The notes under the pieces were generated by a model. The model was given only the letters and a program-made list of their open reading frames with translations, was not told where the DNA came from and ran no database searches. A DNA stretch of 37,040 bases from Bacteroidia bacterium (lineage in GTDB: Bacteria; Bacteroidota; Bacteroidia; B-17B0; Aurantibacillaceae), in the NCBI GenBank assembly GCA_026415195.1, contig JAOAHO010000030.1, positions 1-37,040 of the forward strand, given 5' to 3'. Below, one piece after another: positions 18,601-27,872 of the stretch; the first letter of the stretch is position 1; each line of letters opens with the position of its first letter. Made by a program: the position numbers and the translations under genes.

Positions 18601-18804
18601 CTATGACTCCAATTCACATTTGGTATAAGCCCCGATTTGTTTTTTCTTACACTCCGACTCAGCATCCGATTTCTTTTTTGCTTTAATGTCAAAATGTTGA
18701 TGAACGCCGGGGCCTTCACAATGGCATTCGTAAGTTTTTTTGCATGAAGCAGTACCTAATGCAAAAACTGCAACGATAGATAAAAACAATAACGAATTTC
18801 TCAT
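18601..18804 (-). CDS. small Cys-rich lipoprotein
   Basis: Unknown. The 67-residue product has a lipoprotein signal (1-21) with lipobox-like TASC, so the mature protein would begin at C21 and be lipid-anchored. The mature part is short, Lys-rich and contains further cysteines (YECHC, ESECKKKQIGAYTKC), resembling small Bacteroidota lipoproteins annotated as hypothetical. It has its own promoter, and follows the TonB-receptor cluster on the same strand by 63 nt, so a link with that cluster is possible but unproven. Confidence 0.7.
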   Translation of the reverse strand: MRNSLLFLSIVAVFALGTASCKKTYECHCEGPGVHQHFDIKAKKKSDAESECKKKQIGAYTKCELES

Positions 18805-18817
18805 AGTTTTTTGATAG

Positions 18818-18848
18818 CAAATATAATGTAATTTTTTAAATACAACAA
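18818..18848 (-). promoter_or_regulatory. promoter of the small lipoprotein gene
   Basis: Minus-strand TATATTTG (18818-18825) with TTG triplets 17 and 20 bp upstream (18843-18845, 18846-18848) is the most complete Bacteroidota-type promoter in the window. It ends 13 nt before the ATG. Confidence 0.65.
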
Positions 18849-18867
18849 TGTTGCGTTTAAATTTTTG

Positions 18868-19329
18868 TTAATTTTTTCTTTCCATCTTTAATACCACCTT
18901 TTTACCCGGATATGCATGGGCAGATTGGGTTCGGGCCGAAAAGCTATTTCTCTTGCATTCCAACACCTCATATTCCCCGCCGAAATCAATGCATTGCTGG
19001 GCGGCCATAATGTCTTCCATCGTGTGTGCGTGGCCTGCCTGATTACTGATAATTAATGTTTTACCATTATTTCGGATTTGCCAAAAGAACTTTGCATGCC
19101 CCGTATTGCCATAATACCAGGTACCCTTGCAATCTTCCTTGTAAATCTCGCACTCTGAAAATTTAAGCTCAGGCAGAACGGCGACGTTCACCCCATCCAC
19201 CGAAAGTTCCTTTACCAACCATCGCTGTCCGTCCAAACGGTTGGCATTTCGCTTGGTTTTGTTGCAAGAACAGAATATCCATAACCATAACGTGAAAGCC
19301 AATAAACAACAAACAACTTTTCTTTTCAT
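18868..19329 (-). CDS. lipoprotein, possibly lipocalin-like, in TonB-receptor operon
   Basis: Unknown. The 153-residue product has a lipoprotein-like signal ending FCSC (C22), then a beta-rich domain beginning LDGQRWLVKELSVDGVNV with a repeated strand pattern (GTWYYGN, FFWQIRNNGKTLIISN) that recalls lipocalin-like Bacteroidota lipoproteins. There are several Cys and His residues (KEDC, QAGHAHT, QQCIDF). It starts 7 nt after the stop of the 186-residue lipoprotein gene, so it is the last gene of the TonB-receptor operon. A role in metal handling is only suggested by context. Confidence 0.7.
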   Translation of the reverse strand: MKRKVVCCLLAFTLWLWIFCSCNKTKRNANRLDGQRWLVKELSVDGVNVAVLPELKFSECEIYKEDCKGTWYYGNTGHAKFFWQIRNNGKTLIISNQAGHAHTMEDIMAAQQCIDFGGEYEVLECKRNSFSARTQSAHAYPGKKVVLKMERKN

Positions 19330-19336
19330 ATTCGGA

Positions 19337-19897
19337 TTATTTTATTGCCATAGGAAAAGTTACATCCACGTCGGTCTCGCCAGGAGGTTCCGTGCCATTT
19401 TTGATACCCCCCGCCTGATGTTTTAATATCACCCTAACACTTCCAATACCGCTTGAATTGCCCGTCTTCCACTTTGTGGAAATGCCCACCGGCAGATGAT
19501 TATCATCTTTATCCATATAATAAAATTGTATGCTCACACCCTGAAAGTGATAGAAAAACTGATGTTCATTCCGCTCGTTCCAAATTTGATCGGTTAAGGT
19601 ATCTACGGGGTTTTTAGTGTGATCCATAAGTTGAACAGAAACCAAATAGGTTTTGTTTTTCAACAACAATACACTGTCTTTCACCGTAGGGTTATTTCCT
19701 CCGGGCCCATCAGGGTCTGCAAAAAGGGCATAGGAAATGCTTGTCGGATTGACAGAATCCTTAAAAACCAATCGAATTCCGGTTATCAATTCCGGAAGGT
19801 TATTATTCGGAGGCGGCACGGGCTTCAGGTGCTTGTCTTTTTTACAAGACCACATCCAAATAAGGATAACTGATACTATTAAAGTCATTTTTTTCAT
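19337..19897 (-). CDS. TonB-receptor-associated lipoprotein
   Basis: Probably an outer-membrane lipoprotein partner of the receptor encoded just upstream. The 186-residue product has a short signal ending at C18 (MWSCKKD), then LPELITGIRLVFKDS, FADPDGPGG and a conserved-looking NEHQFFYHF segment around residue 112. I recall the same pattern (ELITxxxLTF..., DPDGDGG, DEHQFFY) in lipoproteins that follow ZnuD-like receptors in Bacteroidota; this was not checked. Its ATG overlaps the receptor stop by 4 bases (ATGA), so the two are translationally coupled. Biochemical role unknown. Confidence 0.75.
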   Translation of the reverse strand: MKKMTLIVSVILIWMWSCKKDKHLKPVPPPNNNLPELITGIRLVFKDSVNPTSISYALFADPDGPGGNNPTVKDSVLLLKNKTYLVSVQLMDHTKNPVDTLTDQIWNERNEHQFFYHFQGVSIQFYYMDKDDNHLPVGISTKWKTGNSSGIGSVRVILKHQAGGIKNGTEPPGETDVDVTFPMAIK

Positions 19898-22221
19898 ATG
19901 TGCATTTTTTTTATGTTAAAAGGTATTTTTAATTTGAGTACAAAATTTCTGCCCGGCAGGTCAGTAAAATACCGAAAACGGTCTAAGTAATCCCTGTAAG
20001 CAACATCAAGCAAATTTTGAATTTCCAACATCAGCATCATGCCCGATAAATATTTTTGTTTCAGTAATCTAATTCCCGCCTGCAAATTCCACAACTGATA
20101 ACCGGCCGGTGGCGGGGCAAAATCTTCATTCATGGGTACACGGGCTTGCTTGTCAATCCAGGAATGCTGAATTTCTGCCCACATTTCTTTCAATTGCGTT
20201 TTGAAAAAATAGAACCTGAATGAAGAAAAAATCCTGTCAGCAGGCATGTAGATCAAATATTTTTTCGTTTTAGTATGAACAGCACGCAACAATGTTGCGT
20301 TTTGATGAAATTCAAACCGTGAATTAAAACTCCATAGCCAACTGCACTCCACACCTTGTATCCTGACGGCCGATTGCCTGTATTCAAATTCCGGAAATGC
20401 CCCTTGTATGCTCAGCACATAATTACCCGTGGGCTGCAGGTAAATGAAATTAGAAAAATCGTGAATAAAATACCCTGATTTAATATAAACGTTTTGCAGG
20501 TTCAGTTCAAAAAATGCATTTCCGTTCAACCCGGATTCCTTTTTAAGATCGGGATTTCCCTTCTCATAACCGCCCACGCCGTGATGAAGCCCGTTGGAAT
20601 AAAGTTCGTTGGGCCCGGGCGCCCTCCAGGCATTACCGCCCTGCAACACTATGTTCAGAAAAGAAAATGGTTCATAGTTCACCGATGCCTGAAATGCCAG
20701 GTTATCAAAGGTTCTTACCGGCTTTTGGATTTCATTGTTCAGATAATAAAATGATTGAAGAAAACGGTAATCGTAGCGTATTCCCCCTTCAAATTTCCAG
20801 TGAGGAAGGGAATAGGATTCGGTCAGGAAAAAACCTATATCCCTGCGGACGTAATTCGGAATAAAAAACCTTCCGAATGAATTATTGATCTGATGCAAAA
20901 ACTGCACCCCTCCCTTCCCTTTAAACCCTTTCATTAAAAGATGCTCCAGTGAACATTCCGACTGGGAAGTTTGCACCCTGTAATCCATATCGGGAACTTC
21001 AGCATTTTTATTATTGAATGAAGTATGCTTGTCAAACTCGCTTCGGGCATTGTACTGAAAAGCATAATGAACGTTCAGGATCCATCTTTTCCCGAGATTG
21101 GAACCGAATGCCGCTTTCACCATTTCATGGCTTATTTTTTGCATGGGCCTTTTTATTTCATAAGAAAATGCCTCGGATGTGTATGGCGTTGAAAGGCCAT
21201 GGAGTATGTTTTGAAGGTCGGTGAGGTTACCGATGTGCGCGCCGGTGAAAATACCAATCCTGCTGTTGAATTGGGTATAAAAAACATTAAAACGTGAGTT
21301 TTTCAATCGGTATTGCAATTCGTAGGCGCCATTCCATTCCCGGCTTCCGGTATTGGTGATGTAATAGGACGGGGCTCTTCTGTCGCCCAGGTGCTTGATG
21401 CTTCCCTGTATCCTCCAACTTAAACCCTTTAAAAAATTAAAATTTCCCTGTAATTTTCCCGACATTTGCCCTCCCCTGCCGTTAGTTTGGGCCACCGTAA
21501 AGACCTCGCCATGCAGGCCTGTTGTGTCGGGCAATTCGGAAGGGGCGGAAGCAATAACCCCCGCCACGGCATCGCTGCCATAACGAATGGTTCCGGCACC
21601 TTTTATGACTTCCGTACGATCATAAACAAAAGGATCCATTTCCGGGGCATGTTCGCTTCCCCATTGCTGGGCTTCGTGCCTGATGCCATGGTTGACAATC
21701 AGTACCCTGTAGCCATGCATGCCGTGAATCATGGGCTTAGAAACGGTAGGCCCTGTCTGCAATACACTTACTCCGGGTATCTTACGAATTATATCGGCCA
21801 AATCCGTCCCGCGCGCTTCATCCATTTTATTTCCTTCCATATTGTCGGATACGGTAATGTGCCTGAATTCCGGCAACTTTTCGCTGACAGGAATTTCATT
21901 CAATTCATTATAGTAATGATTAAGGTTAATCTTTAATTTGATATCCTTTTGAAATTCAAGATTCAAGGTTGTGTCAGGGCAGATCCTATGGCGGATGAGG
22001 ATTTGTTTTTTTCCGTAGCAAACGTTCGTGAACCGAAATTCACCATGAGGATCGGTTTTTTGGGTGATGTTTTCAGGAAGCAGGATAACATCGGCATCCC
22101 CGAGTTCTTCCTTACTATGGCGATCGGTAACTTTTCCGAAGATAATACCCGGACATTGCGGCCACAGCATGCCGCAACAAAGTGCAAAGCAAAGCAAATA
22201 TGTAATGCTTTTTACAGACAT
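19894..22221 (-). CDS. TonB-dependent receptor, ZnuD-like
   Basis: Outer-membrane beta-barrel that imports a ligand with energy from TonB. The 775-residue product (ATG at 22221; an upstream GTG would add 17 residues but spoil the signal peptide and overlap the previous gene) has a signal peptide (1-23), a carboxypeptidase-regulatory-like domain (about 26-105), a plug domain (about 125-225) and the barrel to the C-terminus. The plug segment VNHGIRHEAQQWGSEHAPEMDPF (176-198, here HEAQQWGSEHAPEMDPF) resembles zinc-type ZnuD receptors. Together with the His-rich small protein upstream this suggests metal uptake, probably zinc or copper. The last residues LKIPFNIKK are beta-barrel-like. Confidence 0.92.
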   Translation of the reverse strand: MSVKSITYLLCFALCCGMLWPQCPGIIFGKVTDRHSKEELGDADVILLPENITQKTDPHGEFRFTNVCYGKKQILIRHRICPDTTLNLEFQKDIKLKINLNHYYNELNEIPVSEKLPEFRHITVSDNMEGNKMDEARGTDLADIIRKIPGVSVLQTGPTVSKPMIHGMHGYRVLIVNHGIRHEAQQWGSEHAPEMDPFVYDRTEVIKGAGTIRYGSDAVAGVIASAPSELPDTTGLHGEVFTVAQTNGRGGQMSGKLQGNFNFLKGLSWRIQGSIKHLGDRRAPSYYITNTGSREWNGAYELQYRLKNSRFNVFYTQFNSRIGIFTGAHIGNLTDLQNILHGLSTPYTSEAFSYEIKRPMQKISHEMVKAAFGSNLGKRWILNVHYAFQYNARSEFDKHTSFNNKNAEVPDMDYRVQTSQSECSLEHLLMKGFKGKGGVQFLHQINNSFGRFFIPNYVRRDIGFFLTESYSLPHWKFEGGIRYDYRFLQSFYYLNNEIQKPVRTFDNLAFQASVNYEPFSFLNIVLQGGNAWRAPGPNELYSNGLHHGVGGYEKGNPDLKKESGLNGNAFFELNLQNVYIKSGYFIHDFSNFIYLQPTGNYVLSIQGAFPEFEYRQSAVRIQGVECSWLWSFNSRFEFHQNATLLRAVHTKTKKYLIYMPADRIFSSFRFYFFKTQLKEMWAEIQHSWIDKQARVPMNEDFAPPPAGYQLWNLQAGIRLLKQKYLSGMMLMLEIQNLLDVAYRDYLDRFRYFTDLPGRNFVLKLKIPFNIKKMHI

Positions 22222-22249
22222 TAAAAAAATAATTGAATGAAGAATTTTA

Positions 22250-22600
22250 TCAGGACAGATAAGGAGGGGCACGCCCTTTGCAGGAGGTAACTGAAACCGA
22301 GGAATAAGATAATTTGAGATTAACGGTAAAAAACGGTCGGACGGAAAAAACCGAGAGTCCGAAGAAGAGAAACGTCAGGAAAAAGGTTTGTGCTTTAAAA
22401 GATAAGATCGGACAATCTGCAACTGATTCCTCAATATGCACGCCCATGTCTTTATGGTGAAGCGCACAATGCAGGTCGTCTTTAAGGTTATGCGATGAAA
22501 ACAGGTGATGCAAAGTGGAATGCGGCAAAAGAGACAAGAAAAATATACCCGAAAGGATAATTGAAAATTTCCGGAGAATATGCTTTTTATCAAATGCCAC
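22250..22600 (-). CDS. small His-rich membrane protein upstream of TonB receptor
   Basis: Not assigned to a family with certainty. The 116-residue product has two hydrophobic segments (about 12-26 and 70-90) separated by a His/Cys/Asp-rich stretch (HSTLHHLFSSHNL, DLHCALHHKDMGVH, DCPI), a plausible metal-binding face. The C-terminus is CKGRAPPYLS; short proteins ending RGPP or RAPP before TonB receptors are known in the DUF2946 group and in Bacteroidota. The start is GTG at 22600, 7 nt after a -7 box; no ATG exists at the N-terminus. It is the first gene of the receptor operon, 28 nt before the receptor ATG. Confidence 0.7.
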   Translation of the reverse strand: MAFDKKHILRKFSIILSGIFFLSLLPHSTLHHLFSSHNLKDDLHCALHHKDMGVHIEESVADCPILSFKAQTFFLTFLFFGLSVFSVRPFFTVNLKLSYSSVSVTSCKGRAPPYLS

Positions 22601-22609
22601 TTTGTGGCA
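22595..22609. promoter_or_regulatory. inverted repeat over the operon start, candidate operator
   Basis: TGCCAC (22595-22600) and GTGGCA (22604-22609) form a perfect 6-bp inverted repeat with a 3-bp centre. It lies between the -7 box and the first codons and includes the GTG start codon, a position where a bound repressor would block transcription. The same bases could form a short mRNA hairpin. Confidence 0.45.
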
Positions 22610-22615
22610 AAAATA
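22608..22615 (-). promoter_or_regulatory. -7 box of the TonB-receptor operon
   Basis: Minus-strand TATTTTTG matches TAnnTTTG and ends 7 nt before the GTG start. It overlaps the inverted repeat by two bases. Confidence 0.5.
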
Positions 22616-23103: not shown

Positions 23104-23151
23104 AAGTAGAAAACGAAAATGGGAGAAATAAATTGCAGTGGATAAAAAAAG

Positions 23152-23226
23152 TCGGGATGACTGGATTTGAACCAGCGACCTCACGCCCCCCAGACGTGTG
23201 CGCTAACCAGGCTGCGCTACATCCCG
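23152..23226 (-). tRNA. tRNA-Pro(GGG)
   Basis: 75 nt. On the minus strand the acceptor stem CGGGATG pairs with CATCCCG, the D stem is GCGC/GCGC, the anticodon stem CACGT/GCGTG encloses the loop CTGGGGG with anticodon GGG, and the T arm has GGTTCAAATCC. The CCA end is not encoded; a run of seven T follows the discriminator and one C. Confidence 0.95.
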
Positions 23227-27641: not shown

Positions 27642-27655
27642 AAGTTGAAATTGAG

Positions 27656-27742
27656 TACCCGGGACGGGACTTGAACCCGTACGGACTTTTTAGGTCCACA
27701 GGATTTTAAGTCCTGCGTGTCTACCAATTCCACCACCCAGGC
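27656..27742 (-). tRNA. tRNA-Leu(UAA)
   Basis: 87 nt, class II. Minus-strand acceptor GCCTGGG pairs with CCCGGGT (with wobble pairs); the anticodon stem CAGGA/TCCTG encloses CTTAAAA, anticodon TAA; a long variable arm follows, then the T arm ACGGG/CCCGT around TTCAAGT. CCA is not encoded. Confidence 0.95.
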
Positions 27743-27784: not shown

Positions 27785-27799
27785 GTATTTAACGTTTAG

Positions 27800-27872
27800 A
27801 GCGGAAAACGGGGCTCGAACCCGCGACCTTAACCTTGGCAAGGTTATGCTCTACCAACTGAGCTATTTCCGC
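27800..27872 (-). tRNA. tRNA-Gly(GCC)
   Basis: 73 nt. Minus-strand acceptor GCGGAAA pairs with TTTCCGC; D arm GCTCAGTTGGTAGAGC; anticodon stem TAACC/GGTTA with loop TTGCCAA, anticodon GCC; T arm with GGTTCGAGCC. CCA is not encoded. Confidence 0.96.

Follow-up and report, generated by a model that had tools for sequence, protein, structure and literature searches.

The locus lies in a 37,040-nucleotide window (the whole stretch of DNA analysed) and consists of genes that all run in one direction on the minus strand, in the order SMP, receptor, LP1 and LP2. The leader ORF, SMP (22250–22600), has a GTG start and encodes 116 residues with a hydrophobic N-terminus, a His cluster, a cysteine (Cys63) and a C-terminal RAPPYLS. 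The receptor gene (19894–22221, ATG start) encodes a 775-residue ZnuD-like TonB-dependent receptor with a CarboxypepD_reg-like N-terminal domain, a plug and a barrel. LP1 (19337–19897) encodes a 186-residue lipoprotein modelled as an Ig-like β-sandwich, and LP2 (18868–19329) a 153-residue lipoprotein with a lipocalin-like fold. The junctions are 28 nt, a 4-bp overlap and 7 nt, so that the coordinates bear out the layout given in an earlier sequence-only reading of the region. That reading counted two lipoproteins. A third, encoded by gene 5 (18601–18804, minus strand), had been overlooked, as had the candidate operators; it is a Cys-rich small lipoprotein of 67 residues (SCKKTYECHCEG...HFD) whose gene starts 63 nt after LP2. 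No Pfam family matched the gene 5 protein. Since gene 5 recurs behind LP2 in five relatives (L034, L161, L162, L163 and L164), the operon probably contains five genes, not four.

Relatives of LP1 were found in 31 of the 61 same-family genomes and, across Bacteroidota, in 86 of 393 genomes and 56 of 180 genera, and this receptor adjoins LP1 in nearly every fetched locus. Of the 87 genomes searched from the order, 8 contain LP2, which was also seen in a Salibacteraceae genome (L032); within the phylum sample, it was found only in the window's own genome. The conserved unit is therefore the receptor with LP1, which are paired phylum-wide, and LP2, confined to few genomes, is a local addition together with gene 5. 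The four-gene order, which the sequence-only reading had proposed to look for in other Bacteroidota, is thus kept across the phylum for the receptor and LP1 only, LP2 being lineage-restricted.

A MORN-like lipoprotein gene precedes the operon, with tRNA-Pro(ggg) (23151–23226) upstream of it; tRNA-Leu(taa) (27655–27742) and tRNA-Gly(gcc) (27799–27872) also lie in the window, all three on the minus strand. In about ten same-family genomes (L037–L057), a YidD-like gene of 69 codons is located between leader and receptor.

The receptor and its probable lipoprotein partner

The receptor contains a TonB plug and a β-barrel, both scoring over the Pfam cut-offs (PF07715, 55 bits; PF00593, 96 bits). 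It remains under every NCBIfam cut-off: the best match is the haem family TIGR01785 (154 bits, 317 required), which scores above the ZnuD model (72.8 bits, 950 required). Because the NCBIfam cut-off for ZnuD is missed, the receptor is termed ZnuD-like, not ZnuD. Assigning the metal from a family profile alone was rejected, as haem, zinc and copper models all match the receptor below cut-off. When solved structures were compared with a receptor-family profile built from 23 relatives, ZnuD was the best match (157 bits, E 4e-45), with the haem receptor PhuR at 93 bits and the copper receptor OprC at 90 bits.

ZnuD of Neisseria meningitidis (PDB 4rdr; PMC4557270), the best solved relative, binds zinc through Asp99, His100, Glu340 and His499 (PMC4557270). 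Hand-counting along the printed alignment (offset 14) places Asp99-His100 at receptor Glu190-His191, in the apical loop of the plug (21649–21654, minus strand), and His499 at His546 (20584–20586, minus strand). Across 77 receptors, the first position is an acid (Glu or Asp) in 76, and His191 and His546 are each present in 76. Glu340 has no resolved counterpart, as the profile leaves this region unaligned; the stretch around it contains His365, which is invariant, and His329, which is present in 96% of the 77 receptors. The plug segment QQWGSEHAPE, which the sequence-only reading had singled out as a pattern of zinc-type receptors, spans receptor residues 185–194. The receptor shares with ZnuD the acid-His pair of the plug, the loop histidine of the zinc site and FRAP/NPNL-type boxes; it differs in its N-terminal carboxypeptidase-regulatory-like domain, the unmatched Glu340 and its lipoprotein companion. 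None of the columns across the 77 receptors conserves Cys or Met at 85%, which speaks against a copper site of the OprC type. On this alignment, the receptor family is ZnuD-like and keeps three of the four ZnuD zinc ligands almost throughout the 77 relatives.

LP1 matches neither HmuY nor any Pfam family. Its membership in a Pfam or NCBIfam family was rejected, the only matches being scattered and weak and probably due to the signal peptide or to Ig-like character. The LP1 model (pLDDT 91) is a β-sandwich, for which a fold search gave nothing significant (best E 5e-3, TM below 0.4), the weak matches being Ig-like. Among 88 diverse sequences, Cys18, His112, Gly138, Leu158 and His160 are conserved in 100%, Asp176 in 99% and Asp131 in 97%. 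Cys18 is the lipobox cysteine, equivalent to Cys22 of LP2, and both are kept in relatives. With the strands ordered as 112–119 up, 123–127 down, 140–145 up, 150–160 down and 174–185 up, His112, Asp129, Asp131, His160 and Asp176 are predicted to cluster at one end of the sandwich. Some members carry His-rich inserts (13 histidines in L033). For LP2, the lipocalin-like model gave a best fold match with an E of 1.3e-3 and a TM of about 0.5.

LP1 and its receptor resemble BtuG and BtuB and other pairs of surface lipoprotein and TonB receptor of Bacteroidota (PMC10404256, PMC6143338) in that the genes are adjacent and kept as a pair. A further possible likeness is an acidic stretch behind the lipid-carrying cysteine, a candidate surface-exposure signal seen in many LP1 members: 58 of 85 LP1 sequences have at least two acids in the seven residues after this cysteine, and LP1 of the window has one. 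Unlike BtuG, LP1 has no significant match to a known family or fold, and its candidate ligand is the bare metal. The lipoproteins had been proposed as metal-capturing partners of the receptor. For LP1, with two invariant histidines, a near-invariant aspartate and coupling to the receptor, this role is plausible, and it may extend to the other lipoproteins; LP2 is only a lineage-restricted addition.

In one locus (L142; G344 contig 90, 4628–8608), LP1 is flanked by two COG0523 GTPase genes with no adjoining receptor, and LP1 may therefore function, or be controlled, independently of the receptor that normally accompanies it. A plasmid search returned one Bernardetia record, in which LP1 occurs without an annotated receptor. 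A second LP1-like protein in the window's genome (C58, E 1e-5) was set aside, as it sits in a different operon.

The leader ORF

The first ORF has an R[AGP]PP motif at its end in 61 of 77 operons (RAPP or RGPP in 57; one of the rest ends in KPPP), and this motif lies 2–5 residues ahead of the stop codon in 60 of the 61 leaders. A CXXC motif is present in 32 of the 61, and 28 of these 32 motifs sit 41–45 residues before the end motif. In addition, 11 further ORFs with an R[AGP]PP end, among 281 ORFs of similar size that were not called SMP, also precede such a receptor. The window leader has a single cysteine, Cys63, in place of a CXXC, then 46 residues, RAPP (22262–22273, minus strand), three residues and the stop (tail ...KGRAPPYLS), with 28 nt to the receptor gene. 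In L058 and L061, one more small ORF that ends in RGPP is found between receptor and LP1, apparently as a second leader within the operon.

The arrangement of the first-ORF leaders is that of CruR, the leader of the Bordetella operon CruR-bfrG, which consists of CXXC, 45 residues, RAPP, three residues and a stop; copper relieves the arrest of the ribosome on CruR and the downstream receptor gene is turned off (PMC9426467). The window shares with CruR-bfrG a small exported leader ORF in first position of a TonB-receptor operon, and with both CruR and CutF (CutF-cutO, PMC9973294) a Cys motif about 45 residues before RAPP and a RAPP three residues from the stop. The differences are one Cys and a His in place of CXXC, relatives that often end in RGPP, no match to DUF2946, a zinc-type receptor and a gap of 28 nt, which is short for the Rho-dependent mechanism of CruR; no RNA stem-loop beyond shuffled sequences was found in this gap (z −0.77). 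Since it agrees with the CruR and CutF leaders in its R[AGP]PP end, in the distance from Cys to RxPP and in standing first, SMP is probably a metal-sensing leader read by the ribosome, which regulates the operon through arrest and is not a part of the transport machinery.

The sequence-only reading had instead taken the first gene for a metal-uptake membrane protein, DUF2946-like with a RAPP end. The architecture and the RAPPYLS tail hold for this description. The Pfam profile of DUF2946 (PF11162) matched neither the window leader nor 10 relatives, and membership by Pfam was rejected, two CXXC-containing relatives giving weak matches below cut-off (best E 0.0056); the window leader is DUF2946-like in architecture only. 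It is unlikely that the gene product is a genuine metal-binding protein, small and located in the membrane or periplasm, whose conserved end serves in sorting or folding. The hydrophobic N-terminus and His cluster do resemble metal-binding proteins, and the arrest itself is only predicted; however, sequence identity in the body of the leader falls to 14–27%, whereas the R[AGP]PP motif is retained at a constant distance from the stop, the gene directly precedes the receptor, and no arrest cores of this kind are known to be stronger than RAPP and RGPP, which proteomes otherwise avoid (PMC12992588).

Candidate promoters and operators

The −7 box of Bacteroidota promoters has the consensus TAnnTTTG. 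A candidate −7 box of this type, TATTTTTG, lies at 22608–22615 (minus strand) immediately before the leader; if it is used, the leader mRNA would be almost leaderless. The end of this box and the leader start codon are overlapped by a perfect palindrome, TGCCAC-AAA-GTGGCA (22595–22609), the best site upstream of the operon. Another candidate operator, CGCAACATTGTTGTA (18841–18855), is located 15 bp upstream of TATATTTG (18818–18825, minus strand), a candidate −7 box of gene 5.

A dyad scan of 84 upstream regions from across the phylum detected TGCAAC-N3-GTTGCA in five loci, exceeding every shuffle. Sites with at most one mismatch to TGCAACANTGTTGCA number 9 in 50 kb of upstream zones versus 5 in 990 kb elsewhere (p 2e-9), and none were found in 2.2 Mb of shuffled sequence. 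The three top-scoring matches in the 37-kb window are all inside the operon: the best, CGCAACATTGTTGCG (20285–20299), is within the receptor coding sequence, and the others are the sites at 18841 and 22595, the latter scoring third at 3 mismatches from TGCAACA-N-TGTTGCA. Genome-wide, the remaining nine sites with at most two mismatches are mostly intragenic. The 18841 and 22595 sites stand in repressor-like positions and are candidate operators; the Zur sites that the sequence-only reading suggested searching for may thus be present. The case for such an operator is strong for the motif and only moderate for the window, because L115 sites similar to those of the window formed part of the training set for the scoring matrix and the 22595 site has three mismatches. 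Most relatives of the same family lack the box, and a search of them by eye revealed no shared palindrome.

Solo LP1 genes in L098, L103 and L109 have the motif as well, and two sites precede a Zur-like gene in L115. The palindrome occurs in 7 of 16 operons without a leader versus 1 of 61 with one (p 3e-5), a comparison that covers several families and ignores their phylogeny. Palindrome and leader thus look like alternative sensors of one metal, and the window seems to carry both. The system would resemble the Zur regulon of Caulobacter znuK/znuL (PMC4176598), with a Fur-family repressor and palindromic operators over promoters of zinc receptors; the Caulobacter operator is GTTA-N5-TAAC, as compared with TGCAACA-N-TGTTGCA here.

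Metal specificity and proposed mechanism

Genes near LP1 point to zinc. Fur-family genes adjoin LP1 or share its run of genes at five loci (L109, L110, L111, L129 and, farther off, L115), MerC genes at about eight (L031, L104, L117, L128, L130 and L131, plus L115 and L098 with MerC-like ORFs) and COG0523 GTPases at five (L031, L036, L117, L142 and L162); a cation diffusion facilitator occurs in one locus (L031) and a HupE/UreJ protein in L162. Some COG0523 members have a link to zinc homeostasis (PMC2770081). The window's genome encodes, besides an ordinary Fur (L178), a second, Zur-like protein (L177) of the same subtype as the Fur-family genes beside LP1; it matches the regulator of L110 with an E of 3e-24 and the ordinary Fur of its own genome with 7e-6. 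This genome contains one partial ZIP gene and no ZnuA, the latter being a point against the zinc reading.

A His-rich coiled lipoprotein of about 162 residues with EH repeats (e.g. MEEHEKMKAEHEQLIADHKKM), possibly a metal buffer, accompanies COG0523 and the receptor in L031/L160 and L036, and in L031 also MerC and the cation diffusion facilitator. Genes for GTP cyclohydrolase I (FolE-like, a zinc-dependent enzyme) are found near the operon in L115, L121 and L135, in L115 together with the MerC-like ORF and the Zur-like gene.

Zinc is favoured over copper or haem because of the ZnuD-like receptor, its conserved ligands and the Zur-like Fur-family, COG0523 and MerC neighbours. The choice between zinc and copper, which the sequence-only reading held to be undecided by sequence, now leans clearly to zinc on the receptor ligands and the neighbours, and its proposal of an operon for metal acquisition that includes a ZnuD-like receptor is supported; His/Cys positions, which it had named as a test, are conserved. 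That the leader is zinc-responsive is argued mainly from the mutual replacement of box and leader: if the two do replace each other, they most probably respond to a common metal, which for a regulator of the Fur family with zinc genes as neighbours would be zinc.

An operon for copper acquisition, with a copper-sensing leader of the CruR kind and a copper-importing receptor like OprC or CrtA, is improbable. It would agree with the copper response of the two leaders of such architecture that have been examined by experiment, CutF (PMC9973294) and the CruR that precedes a TonB receptor gene (PMC9426467), with the CXXC in 32 of 61 leaders and with the reach of the receptor profile to OprC at 90 bits. 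However, the receptors keep the ZnuD ligands and lack conserved Cys or Met, and the LP1 neighbours are of the Fur, COG0523 and MerC type. Moreover, an EMBO J 2025 survey found no copper-type RAPP leaders in Bacteroidota, whereas RAPP/RGPP small proteins before TonB receptor genes are general in Gram-negatives (PMC12992588). Uptake of haem or of a metallophore-bound metal, with LP1 as a haemophore- or metallophore-binding lipoprotein like HmuY, XusB or BtuG, is quite unlikely: TIGR01785 is the top NCBIfam match of the receptor, which has WRAP/NPDL boxes with HH between them, and gut Bacteroides lipoproteins of this type serve B12 and siderophores, but ZnuD itself has conserved motifs in common with haem receptors and was originally misannotated as one (PMC4557270), LP1 matches neither HmuY nor Pfam, and the neighbours are zinc-type.

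The locus is thus rather likely to be a zinc-starvation operon that combines a repressor, an arrest leader, a ZnuD-like receptor and hand-over by LP1. When zinc is short, the Zur-like repressor would leave the palindromes at 22595–22609 and 18841–18855. With the His/Cys segment of the leader unmetallated, the ribosome would stall on RAPP and receptor expression would be kept on; metal on this segment would release the stall and turn the operon off, as in CruR. The receptor would import zinc through the plug-plus-loop site of Glu190, His191 and His546. LP1, anchored in the outer membrane, may bind surface zinc, either free or on a carrier, and deliver it to the receptor in the way BtuG serves BtuB. 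The LP2 and gene 5 lipoproteins may bind metal too.

In kind, the locus is an ordinary metal receptor operon; what is new or unassigned in it are a common but unnamed lipoprotein family, a candidate leader for zinc-responsive arrest and a candidate Zur box. The sequences, their conservation, the gene context and the motif statistics are observed, whereas the metal, the arrest, capture by the lipoprotein and repression are inferred. Literature searches returned neither an arrest peptide that responds to zinc nor a lipoprotein of the LP1 kind that captures zinc for a TonB receptor, and the Riemerella ZntR paper does not mention this operon type. It is possible, at a little under an even chance, that zinc-receptor operons of Bacteroidota pair a dedicated surface lipoprotein for zinc, LP1, as the zinc counterpart of BtuG, with a zinc-sensing RAPP/RGPP arrest leader for which a Zur operator can substitute and vice versa. 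If the leader is zinc-responsive, it would widen metal-responsive arrest of the ribosome, which has so far been tested with copper, to include zinc, and it would bring such arrest to a phylum reported to be without copper-type leaders. The palindrome provides a directly testable candidate Zur box for Bacteroidota. LP1 is present in about a fifth of the sampled Bacteroidota genomes and has no Pfam family, and a role in zinc capture would put a name to this common protein.
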